From an uncultured Ectothiorhodospiraceae bacterium (GTDB taxonomy: Bacteria > Pseudomonadota > Gammaproteobacteria > XJ16 > Halofilaceae): a stretch of 64,000 nt of DNA. Location: assembly GCA_913055615.1 (NCBI GenBank), contig CAJXKK010000005.1, positions 55,207 through 119,206 of the forward strand. Direction: 5' to 3'. The notes under the pieces were generated by a model. The model worked only from the letters and a program-made list of their open reading frames with translations, was not told where the DNA came from and searched no databases. Shown here in pieces: positions 12,970-51,273 of the stretch (positions within the stretch are counted from its first letter, which is position 1; every line of letters begins with the position of its first letter). Made by a program: the position numbers and the translations under genes.

Positions 12970-13257
12970 GAACCACAGATGGACACAGATAAACACAGAG
13001 GGGCGTCGGGGTGGCCCGGTTCTTCTGGAGCTTGGCTGAGAGGGTGTGCCAGTGGACGTGAAAATCAGAACCACGAGATAAACACAAAATAGCTCAGTGC
13101 CCCGCGCACGCCAGATTCAGGCCTTAAGGCCATTTTGTCTCCATTTCGTGGTTCTTCACGCCACCGCGTACGCTCGACAGACCGGTCAGCGAAGCTCCAC
13201 AACCCGGTCGGCTTCCGCCCACGCCCCTCTGTGTTCATCTGTGTCTATCCGTGGTTC
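12970..13257. repeat. 288-bp imperfect palindrome, ACCACAGATGGACACAGAT family
   Basis: The outer arms (12970-13006 and 13221-13257) are 37-base inverted repeats with about three mismatches. Inner arms built on GAACCACGAGATAAACACAA (13067-13090) and its inverse (about 13134-13158) share nearly the same centre, and the palindrome GGCCTTAAGGCC lies at 13121-13132. It occupies the space between rpiA and tRNA-Gln; no gene is seen in it. Confidence 0.75.
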
Positions 13258-13291: not shown

Positions 13292-13328
13292 AAAAACGCC
13301 GCGCCCGGCAGGCCGGGCGCGGCGTTTT
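13292..13328. terminator. Bidirectional rho-independent terminator
   Basis: A 12-base perfect stem, CGCCGCGCCCGG.. with its inverse, is flanked by AAAAA on one side and TTTT on the other. It lies immediately downstream of tRNA-Gln (minus strand) and can end transcripts from both sides. Confidence 0.85.
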
Positions 13329-19014: not shown

Positions 19015-19622
19015 GCGGGTGCCTCCTCCGGTTGCCGCTCGGCCGAGCGGCCGAGGAAGTTCTGCAGCAGATCGTGGCCGTTGCGCGTCAGGATGGACTC
19101 GGGGTGGAACTGCACGCCCTCGATCGCGAGTTCACGATGGCGCAGGCCCATGATCTCATCCATCGATCCGTCCGGATTTTCGGTCCAGGCGGTGATCTCC
19201 AGGCAGTCCGGCAGCCCCTCACGCGCGACCACCAGCGAATGATACCGCGTCGCCTCGAACGGGTTGGGCAGGCCGGCGAAAACGCCCTCGCCGATGTGAT
19301 GGATCAGCGAGGTCTTGCCGTGCATGATCTCGCGCGCATGGACGACCCGCCCGCCGTACGCCTGACCGATGCTCTGGTGCCCGAGACACACCCCGAGGAT
19401 CGGGATCCACCCGGCAAAATGGCGCACGGAATCGACCGAAATCCCGGCCTCATTGGGCGTACATGGCCCTGGCGAGATCATCAGCAACTCCGGCTCCAGC
19501 GCCGCGAGCTCCTCGACGCTCAACTCGTCGTTGCGATACACCGCCACCTCGGCCCCCAGCTCGCCCAGATACTGCACCAGGTTCCAGGTGAACGAATCGT
19601 AGTTGTCGATCATTACAAGCAT
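19011..19622 (-). CDS. trpG: Anthranilate synthase glutamine amidotransferase component
   Basis: Class I amidotransferase of 203 residues supplying ammonia to TrpE. The catalytic Cys is in [12 protein letters not shown] and His-Glu in [29 protein letters not shown] is the typical N-terminus. The start ATG at 19622 was chosen at this N-terminus; upstream sequence in frame belongs to the inverted-repeat arm of the inserted element. A 502-base insertion separates it from trpE, which it normally follows directly. Confidence 0.97.
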
Positions 19623-19648: not shown

Positions 19649-20108
19649 TCTCTCGCCAAGACGCCAAGCGCGCCAAGGATTCAGGGCACTTCTTCCGCGC
19701 CATTTGCCAAACGGACAATGCCGTCTTTCATCAACGCCCTGTTGAAATTCAACAAATAGCCGAGTCGCCGCCCCGTGAGCCGAAGGTACGTCAGTACCTG
19801 CTTCCTGCGAGAATTATTCAGGCTCTCGACGCACTTCAACTCCACGATCACCCGCGACTGAACAAAAAGGTCCATCCGAAAGCCTTCCTCGAACTCGACG
19901 CCGCGATATCGCAACGGAACCGGGACCTGTCTCGCAACGATGAGGCCGCGTTCGCGCAGTTCATGGGCCATAACGGCTTCATAAACCGTTTCCAATAACC
20001 CCGGCCCCAACTCACGATTCACGCCAATCGCCGCGTCAACCACAATACGGCCAATATCATCATCCTTCATACAGCCTTCCTTGGCGTGCTCTGCGTCTTG
20101 GCGAGAGA
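19649..20108. mobile_element. Inverted-repeat cassette carrying a GxxExxY gene, inserted in the trp operon
   Basis: Two 31-base inverted arms, TCTCTCGCCAAGACGC.. at 19649-19679 and its inverse at 20078-20108, differ at about three positions. They frame a single gene whose stop lies 1 base inside the left arm and whose start lies 7 bases from the right arm. The right arm supplies the gene's ribosome site. The same arms occur without a gene at 38299-38416 and 42664-42821. No transposase is present, so mobility would need another enzyme. This is inference from structure. Confidence 0.7.
19681..20070 (-). CDS. GxxExxY family PD-(D/E)XK-like protein
   Basis: Protein of 129 residues with the family signature [15 protein letters not shown] near residue 24, and the nuclease-fold residues [19 protein letters not shown] (Asp, then Glu-x-Lys) near residues 64-82, ending [14 protein letters not shown]. 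It is named for the motif GxxExxY; its biochemical role is not established. The ribosome site AAGGAAGG is contributed by the flanking repeat. It is oriented with the trp genes and so is probably transcribed with them. Confidence 0.88.
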
Positions 20109-20124: not shown

Positions 20125-21624
20125 TCAGCGCTCCGGAACTCCATCCGCCGCATCGAGTCCTTTCTCGGCGAGTTCGACCGCGCGGATCATGCCGCGGGCC
20201 TTGTTCATGGTCTCTTCCCATTCGGCCTGGGGCTCGGAGTCGTGGACGATGCCGCCACCCGCCTGGACGTGGAGTTGGCCGTCCTTGATCACGGCGGTGC
20301 GGATTGCGATGGCCGTGTCCATGTCGCCCGACCACGCGAGATAGCCGACCGCGCCGGAATAGACCCCGCGCCGTACCGGCTCCAGTTCGTCGATGATCTC
20401 GAGCGCGCGGATCTTGGGCGCGCCCGAGAGCGTGCCGGCCGGGAACGTCGCACGCAGCACGTCGAGCGCCGAGAGGCCCGGGCGCAACCTTCCCACCACA
20501 TTCGACACGATGTGCATGACGTGCGAGTAGCGCTCGACCGCCATGTTGTCGGTGAGCTCGACCGAGCCGATCTCCGCGATGCGGCCGACGTCGTTGCGGC
20601 CGAGGTCGATCAGCATCAAATGCTCCGCCCGCTCCTTCGGGTCGGCGAGCAGCTCGGCTTCCAGCGCGCGGTCCTCCGCGTCGTCGCGGCCGCGCCGGCG
20701 GGTCCCCGCGATCGGCCGCACCGTCACCTCGCCGTCCTCGACCCGGGTCAGGATCTCCGGCGAGGCGCCGACGACCTGGAAGTCTCCAAAATCCAGCAGG
20801 TACATATAGGGCGAGGGATTGAGGCAGCGCAGGGCCCGGTACAGATCGATCGGGCGGGCCGCGAACGGCACCGTCATGCGCTGGGAGGGCACCACCTGCA
20901 TGACGTCGCCATCGACGATGTAGCGCTTGATCCGCTCAACGGCATCCTTGTAGCCCGCCTCGGTGAAGCCGGAGACGAAGTCCTTCTCCGTGACGTCGAA
21001 CGCGCGCGTCGGCGTCGGGTAACCGGTGCCCGGCCCGCGCAGGTCGCCCATCAGATTGTCGATGCGCGCCTCGCCGGCGACGCGGGCCTCTTCGGCCGGT
21101 TCGACGAAGACGATGAATCGGGCGGTGCCGCGCAGGTTGTCGAAGACGACTACCTCATCCGAGAGCATCAACAGGATCGTGGGTGTGCCGAGCGGATCGG
21201 GCTTGTCCTGCGGCACATCGAGCCGCGGCTCGATGTAACGGATAGTGTCGTAGCCGAAATACCCGACCAGACCGCCCTGCACGCGCGGCAGTCCATCGAC
21301 ATCGGGCACCCGGAAGCGGGCGCGGTAGTCCTCGATCCAGGCCAGTGGATCGGCCACGTCGGCCTGCTCAACGACCTCGCCCTCCGTCGTGACCGTGATC
21401 GTGCGCTCTTCGACCCGGACAACCGTGCTGCACGGCAGACCGATGACGGAGTAACGCCCCCATTTCTCGCCGCCGTGCACGGACTCGAACAGATAGGAAT
21501 ACGGCCCATCGACGAGCTTCGACCAGGTGGACAGCGGGGTATCGAAATCCGCGAGGATCTCGCGGGAGAGCGGAATGCGGTTATAGCCCGCGCGGGCGTA
21601 TTCGTGGAACTGCTCTGGTGTCAT
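20125..21624 (-). CDS. trpE: Anthranilate synthase component I
   Basis: Chorismate-using enzyme of 499 residues, first committed step to tryptophan. The feedback-site region reads [20 protein letters not shown], close to the usual LLES motif, so feedback inhibition is likely kept. The catalytic domain has [28 protein letters not shown] and [15 protein letters not shown]. It is the first structural gene of the operon, with its own promoter and a candidate leader peptide upstream. Confidence 0.97.
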
Positions 21625-38298: not shown

Positions 38299-38416
38299 TC
38301 TCGCCAAGTGCGCCAAGGAACAAAAAACCGGGTGCGAACTGCCGGCATTGGCCTTCGGCCAAAGCCGGCCTACGATGTACTTTGCATTCCTTGGCGTGCT
38401 TGGCGTCTTGGCGAGA
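38299..38416. repeat. Gene-free inverted-repeat element, TCTCGCCAAGACGCC family
   Basis: The left arm (38299-38319) reads TCTCGCCAAGTGCGCCAAGG with an internal deletion relative to the right arm (38388-38416), which is the full inverse form. Inside is the REP-like pair GCCGGC..GGCC/GGCC..GCCGGC (38341-38371). It occupies most of the 240-base gap between tkt and gap. Arms are of the same family as those framing the GxxExxY gene. Confidence 0.7.
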
Positions 38417-38424
38417 GACCCCTT

Positions 38425-42663: not shown

Positions 42664-42821
42664 AAAACCGGTATCTCGCCAAGACGCCAGGCGCGCCAAG
42701 GAGAGCAGAAAAAGGTCGTGCTCACTCGCACGACATGTCATGCGGGAGACGGGACCTCAAGCATTTATCCATCTTTTGACCTTCCTTGGCGCGCCTGGCG
42801 TCTTGGCGAGATACCGGTTTT
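42664..42821. repeat. Gene-free element with perfect 39-bp inverted repeats
   Basis: The arms 42664-42702 and 42783-42821 are perfect inverse copies of 39 bases (beginning AAAACCGGTATCTCGCCAAG) with an 80-base spacer. The spacer has no gene but contains a small GGTCGTGC/GCACGAC hairpin. It is the best preserved copy of the family that also frames the GxxExxY gene. The remaining bases to glgP hold only the glgP leader. Confidence 0.8.
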
Positions 42822-51066: not shown

Positions 51067-51129
51067 TCTCCCACTCCAAGCATAGCTGACAGGGCGGGTG
51101 ACGCCTATCGGACGCAGAAAAATCGTTTT

Positions 51130-51273
51130 CTCGCGGAGGCGCGGAGTACGCCGAGAAAACAATAACTCACCCTGCGTCATTGCGGTACGCGGCCCCATAG
51201 ACAGTGATCCCGGCCTCAACCAGAACACTATTCTTTCTTCGCTTTACTGCGCGTACTCCGCGCCTCTGCGAGA
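51130..51273. repeat. Inverted-repeat element, CGCAGAGGCGCGGAG family
   Basis: The left arm TCTCGCGGAGGCGCGGAGTA (from 51130) and its inverse ending at 51273 enclose about 100 bases with no gene. It lies in the divergent glgC/glgB gap (51067-51392) and may affect both promoters. Confidence 0.7.

Follow-up and report, generated by a model that had tools for sequence, protein, structure and literature searches.

Where MITEs have an autonomous partner, one element with a gene and many short ones that lack it carry the same inverted ends; RAYTs, for their part, are relatives of the HUH/Y1 transposases. REPIN-RAYT systems, in the accessible part of their description (PMC3116915), have one resident gene per flavour, flanked by short palindromic repeats that are also dispersed gene-free as inverted pairs; a genome has several flavours, and the gene is stable and largely vertically inherited. 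The IVS of 23S rRNA, in the accessible part of PMC4990558, are ~430-460 nt long with a ~30-bp terminal stem and one S23 four-helix-bundle ORF of ~130 amino acids, and are inserted at a hairpin tip (helix 45); the same part of that source describes the Coxiella IVS (428 nt, 28-bp terminal stem, one ORF) as excised by RNase III. The GxxExxY elements described below are likened to REPIN-RAYT systems in the first set of traits and to the IVS in size, stem, single ORF and insertion at hairpin tips. The name GxxExxY is met with in passing in the accessible part of PMC8934634 and is also mentioned in that of PMC12085832; the heptamer G-rich repeats treated in the accessible part of PMC4692102 are not the GxxExxY arm repeats. 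In 5.39 million open-access papers searched, no description of a GxxExxY palindrome system was found, and the arm strings do not occur there as text.

The window (the whole analysed stretch of DNA, 64,000 nt) carries such an element as an insert in trpEG, at 19649-20108:

19649-19679: left arm (3' arm of the gene), units CGCCAAG three times
19681-20070, minus strand: GxxExxY gene, PD-(D/E)XK nuclease-like, 129 amino acids, with E27, D67, E77-x-K79 and Q91xxxY95
20075-20082, minus strand: putative Shine-Dalgarno-like element AAGGAAGG, read from the sequence, overlapping the inner end of the right arm
20078-20108: right arm (5' arm of the gene), units CGCCAAG/CGCAGAG/CGCCAAG

The two 31-nt arms are 90% complementary and lie 398 nt apart. 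The ORF, which is co-oriented with trpE (ending at 20125) and trpG (starting at 19622), ends 1 nt from the left arm and starts 7 nt from the right one. The trpE-trpG spacing is 0-36 nt in six of the seven related genomes in which both genes could be placed, and 130 nt in the seventh; the extra DNA in the window is thus essentially the arm-gene-arm unit. An earlier note, made without database searches, had claimed as much: that a single unit fills the intergenic space beyond its normal size, that the gene fills the unit to within a few bases, and that its ribosome site lies in an arm. The observation is confirmed, and the accompanying hunch was of the right sort, in that gene and arms belong to a single unit to which the gene-free copies are related. 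The arrangement is also exceptional among ORFs at large. When 972 ORFs of 100-180 amino acids, taken in any frame from 760 kb of the same genome and one congener, were scored for inverted repeats in their flanks, only four reached a score of at least 35, and the top score, 47, belongs to the trpEG GxxExxY gene.

By profile, the protein is a full member of its family, matching TIGR04256 (GxxExxY) at 4.4e-38 (130.2 bits, curated cut-off 35 bits) and PF13366 (PDDEXK_3) at 6e-39 (133.5 bits, curated cut-off 22 bits). All 42 sequences compared have E77, K79 and Q91, and at least 90% of them have D67 and Y95. The structure model (pLDDT 92, pTM 0.86) has SSO0001, which we take to be Cas4, as its top structural match (Z 10.0 over 103 residues, 4.5 A), in agreement with the PD-(D/E)XK-like fold proposed in the earlier note; nucleases of the restriction type and of Holliday junctions score lower, at Z 6-9, in which range values below 8 may mean only a common arrangement. 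Foldseek alone gave no match at E <= 0.001, and the best hit of a sequence search of the PDB had an E value of only 0.24. The D, E-x-K and QxxxY residues, a set that we take to mark the RecB/Cas4 group, lie within the predicted fold, and the model thus supports a RecB/Cas4-type PD-(D/E)XK nuclease-like assignment. The gene has dN 0.085 and dS 0.773 (dN/dS ~0.11), with dN 0.038 and dS 0.460 for trpG, values that indicate purifying selection on the protein.

The arm is not confined to trpEG. With up to 3 mismatches allowed, TTGGCGTCTTGGCGAGAGA has 49 matches in the genome and its reversal 7. Gene-free copies matching the arm thus do exist in the same genome, contrary to the second outcome that the earlier note had named as counting against it; most of the matches form facing pairs, 70-280 nt from end to end, whose enclosed sequences are for the most part unrelated. 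A second GxxExxY gene of this genome (G000) lies downstream of parE, inside a 31-nt inverted repeat (97%) whose arm, CCACAGATGGACACGGATGAACACAGAT, differs from that at trpEG and has 104 matches genome-wide against none for its reversal. Between G000 and its congener G002 both arms of the parE site have changed flavour together (CACAGAT in G000, CACGAAT in G002); the site is flanked by orthologous genes, and its GxxExxY proteins have strongly diverged. A general three-unit pattern matches 256 times in G000 and 407 times in G002, with 3 and 0 matches for the backward control. Within the window, the other palindromes are these:

12970-13257: nested element; outer CACAGAT arms at 12970-13009 and 13218-13257, inner arms at 13067-13093 and 13129-13155, near the centre
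38299-38418: gene-free CGCCAAG palindrome, also present in G002
42672-42813: gene-free CGCCAAG palindrome; G002 has at the same site a CGCCAAG palindrome with an unrelated loop
45504-45997: weak CGCAGAG arm pair (19 nt, 84%); counterpart not seen in G002
51129-51273: gene-free CGCGGAG palindrome; G002 has a CGCCAAG palindrome at the same site

At the last of these (C5:106338) both arms have switched flavour together. A perfect 17-nt inverted repeat with a 2-nt loop and a TTTT end, terminator-like, adjoins the nested element at 13293-13328. The palindromes at 38299-38418 and 42672-42813 bear out the statement that arms of the trpEG family occur elsewhere in the window without a gene. The picture of a full-length element with non-autonomous derivatives survives in part: gene-free relatives exist, and yet it is too simple, since the gene-free copies form a class of their own, whose loops are short and for the most part unrelated, as in REPIN-RAYT systems. 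Several CGCCAAG palindromes of this genome (L042, L047, L053, L057, L059) have REP-like doublets, GTAGGAGCGAGCTTGCTCGCGA, in their loops, which suggests that palindrome centres may attract other repeat families too.

With a gene flanked by a repeat of which the same genome also has scattered gene-free copies, the locus has the repeat side of a REPIN-RAYT system. It differs in its enzyme, PDDEXK_3 instead of an HUH/Y1 RAYT, in its arm of three 7-nt units, and in having whole elements nested at palindrome centres. A REPIN-RAYT system with a nuclease replacing the RAYT is accordingly the closest working model; membership fails on the enzyme.

The arms follow a common plan across loci: three units of the form C[AG]C[ACG][AG]A[AGT], their starts 8-11 nt apart, reading inward from both ends, with the particular 7-nt sequence within this code (the flavour) varying between elements. 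At 86 of 113 GxxExxY loci (the 113 being what remained of 125 after 12 with short flanks were dropped) at least one flank has a coded inward arm no more than 250 nt from the gene, and at 40 both flanks do; none of 94 controls displaced by 1 kb has such arms on both sides. For the genome and its relatives the counts are 11/14 (at least one side) and 8/14 (both), for the set from the same phylum 26/28 and 9/28, and for other phyla 49/71 and 23/71. The remaining 27 of the 113 loci have no coded inward arm, and L062, L065 and L069 are examples of GxxExxY genes without arms. Outward-reading arms number 11 on the left and 16 on the right among the 71 loci of other phyla, where they exceed the control, 4 and 1 among the 28, and none among the 14; neighbouring elements would be expected to produce this pattern. 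By alignment alone, 70 of 114 GxxExxY loci have a flank inverted repeat score of at least 35, against 0 of 96 displaced controls, so that unrelated flanks in most genomes, which the earlier note had named as one outcome that would count against it, are not what is found. A control with mispaired flanks, which places 26 of 72 loci above its 99th percentile, was not kept as the main one, since it is inflated by the relatedness of arms at different loci. Searches of phages returned no match and of plasmids five records. At L161:708-911, a tandem glycine riboswitch lies upstream of a GxxExxY locus.

One might suppose that matching arms are a by-product of palindrome-templated mutation or slippage, with the link to the gene arising from a shared intergenic location. 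Such a process fits the finding that the two arms of one element are closer to each other than to those of other elements, and the switching of all units together; we nevertheless give it very little credence, in view of the unit code common to different phyla, the absence of strong flanking repeats from all 96 displaced controls, and their rarity at ordinary ORFs (four of the background set, one of them the trpEG gene itself).

The code appears to be particular to the gene family. TIGR02436, the four-helix-bundle family of IVS elements, has no match in the genome analysed here; at 29 of its loci elsewhere (L283-L312) no GxxExxY-coded arm was found, so the arm code travels with the gene family. 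These loci have inverted flanks of their own (15 of 29, against 0 of 28 displaced controls), in which 7-bp units (GTGAGGA or GTAGGCA, for example) stand in tandem, and, judged by sequence, TIGR02436 genes would constitute a parallel system with another code. Among GxxExxY loci, the arm flavour is the same in the nearest protein in 47 of 91 cases, against 10.8 when shuffled, and the agreement vanishes for proteins of less than 60% identity (9 of 91): arm and gene are inherited together. The flavour of the gene's arms is also among the commonest of its genome in all seven genomes that can be compared:

G000: gene flavours CGCCAAG and CACAGAT, among the commonest of the genome in the matches listed
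G001: CACGAAA; its trpEG element, split over two contigs, carries CGCCAAG
G002: CACGAAT and CGCCAAG, within the examined parts of the genome
G010: CACGGAG, among the matches listed
G017: CGCAGAG, among the matches listed
G027: CGCAGAT, among the matches listed
G037: CACAGAG, among the matches listed

Copy number follows the gene as well. In one family of 74 genomes, the median number of arm matches is 29 with the gene (n=45) and 7 without it (n=29; p 2.9e-6), or 21 and 7 net of control (p 5e-6), the p values being uncorrected for relatedness. For 12 loci from other phyla, each genome has arm matches, 22-348 against 0-30 for the reversed pattern.

These associations bear on whether the gene is the driver of the system or its cargo, a choice that the earlier note had left standing. 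If cargo, GxxExxY genes would be passengers settled in the loops of palindromes that some other, unlinked activity moves. Arms do persist without the gene: nine genomes (G023, G204, G188, G315, G276, G157, G059, G208, G011) have arms and no GxxExxY gene even at E <= 1, among them G023, listed as 100% complete, with 42 arm matches (CACGAAA, CACAGAG), and G059 with 20; G034 has the gene and no arm anywhere in its genome. The gene-free loops, too, vary and contain DNA of other kinds, REP-like doublets among it. We consider this reading unlikely all the same. Gene and genome agree in flavour, protein and flavour pass on together, and the four-helix-bundle genes never have the GxxExxY code. Nor was any other gene found filling a loop: in 1.31 Mb, a sample biased toward loci collected for the gene, every palindrome loop of at least 375 nt holds GxxExxY except for one 797-nt case, which is two neighbouring elements. 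We infer that the nuclease is the driver of the palindrome system, with association backing driver over cargo.

The evidence for movement comes from nesting. Elements of the GAACC family have sharp ends and are nested, the inner element centred in the outer. Nesting is found in both orders (CACGAAT outside CACAGAT, the reverse at L083, and others), and the mean asymmetry of nine nested pairs is 0.05 where 0.5 would be expected of uniform placement (KS p 2e-6), although five of the nine pair CACGAAT with CACAGAT and may all be copies of a single composite, leaving about four independent classes. Elements centred in other elements, in both orders, mean that insertion has happened. The composites L081, L084 and L085, at different loci, share their interior over 420-434 nt at 70-71% (pairs L081-L085 and L081-L084). 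Outside the arms of the GAACC family no signal of a palindromic target was seen (p 0.61); in the TCTCGCC family symmetry extends beyond the arms (p 0.004), and the TCTCGCC element is probably longer than its arms.

Elements are present in both G000 and G002 at 13 of 15 sites compared by eye, so that recent movement is not seen between them; no clean empty site emerged from this comparison, most sites being shared and neutral sequence too diverged for boundaries. The empty trpEG site that had been anticipated in close relatives is likewise missing: both congeners carry the unit, which is common to three species, and the gaps of the distant relatives are not alignable at base level. Target-site duplications, also anticipated, did not materialize, with no exact duplication of at least 3 nt at any of 40 elements, though old copies could have lost them. 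The trpEG copy is old, which, along with the missing duplications and the missing clean empty site, is against simple transposition. From MITEs the GxxExxY system differs in lacking a transposase, in these absent duplications, and in loops that are mostly unrelated between copies. Unrelated loops were at one point taken as proof of replacement, an argument that was dropped: at dS 0.5-0.8 neutral loops are unalignable anyway.

Old sites shared between congeners, together with purifying selection, are also what one would expect if nothing moved, with GxxExxY a genome-maintenance or regulatory nuclease that binds many inverted triple sites, selection keeping the arms and flavour changing with the protein; the coordinated switch at the parE site, where the protein has much diverged, fits this too. 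Binding sites, however, would not be centred in one another in both orders, nor would they share interiors at different loci as L081, L084 and L085 do, and we regard a purely non-mobile role as quite improbable.

At the RNA level, the minus-strand transcript of the trpEG unit folds better than 100 of 100 shuffles (z -6.4), and the arms close one predicted stem that takes in the ribosome site. By analogy with the Coxiella IVS, RNase III might excise the unit from its transcript. Taken further, the arms would act as RNA, in RNase III hairpin excision, and the protein would act on RNA or in an RNA-borne spread. The identical anatomy of the Coxiella element, the strength of the fold and the TIGR02436 genes with inverted arms of their own speak for such an element; the ORF, however, is not a four-helix-bundle S23, the site is trpEG and not 23S rRNA, and no rRNA lies near the 20 GxxExxY loci tested. 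The elements differ from the IVS further in arm code and in their many gene-free copies between genes, and fold match and motif are of the DNA-nuclease type. An IVS-like RNA element is, on this evidence, highly unlikely.

The best reading, then, is of palindromes that a RecB/Cas4-type nuclease serves, in a system like REPIN-RAYT or like the IVS. A genome would hold one or two resident GxxExxY genes, each within a palindrome (here at trpEG and downstream of parE), and tens to hundreds of gene-free palindromes with the resident gene's unit, scattered between genes. The nuclease would recognize the triple unit and cut extruded or single-stranded palindromes; in this way it might copy or insert gene-free elements in trans, with a preference for the hairpin tips at the centres of palindromes already present. 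The gene would itself seldom move, with selection keeping it, as with RAYT genes; in an operon, the arms may keep the insert quiet by folding into a single RNA stem with the ribosome site hidden inside it. That the trpEG unit is the gene-bearing member of such a selfish palindrome family, spread by the nuclease included, is an explanation toward which we lean, if modestly.

A gene-and-hairpin design with a common end code across many phyla points to a little-noticed mobile palindrome family. More tentatively, as something quite possible though short of probable, GxxExxY proteins may be the enzymes of a pan-bacterial palindromic mobile DNA without transposase, in which a RecB/Cas4-like nuclease reads the triple 7-nt code, palindromes insert at hairpin tips and so come to lie stacked one within another, the hundreds of palindromes of a genome take their code from the resident gene and can have it changed by that gene, and the four-helix-bundle genes of TIGR02436 stand at the head of a parallel class whose code is a 7-bp tandem unit. 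Because the unit code is visible, recognition is directly testable by a flavour swap. The link between GxxExxY and palindromes gives the abundant, unexplained TIGR04256 family a testable function and offers an origin for the unnamed intergenic palindromes that abound in many phyla; if true, it would place a second enzyme type, beside the RAYTs, among the resident genes that maintain miniature repeats.
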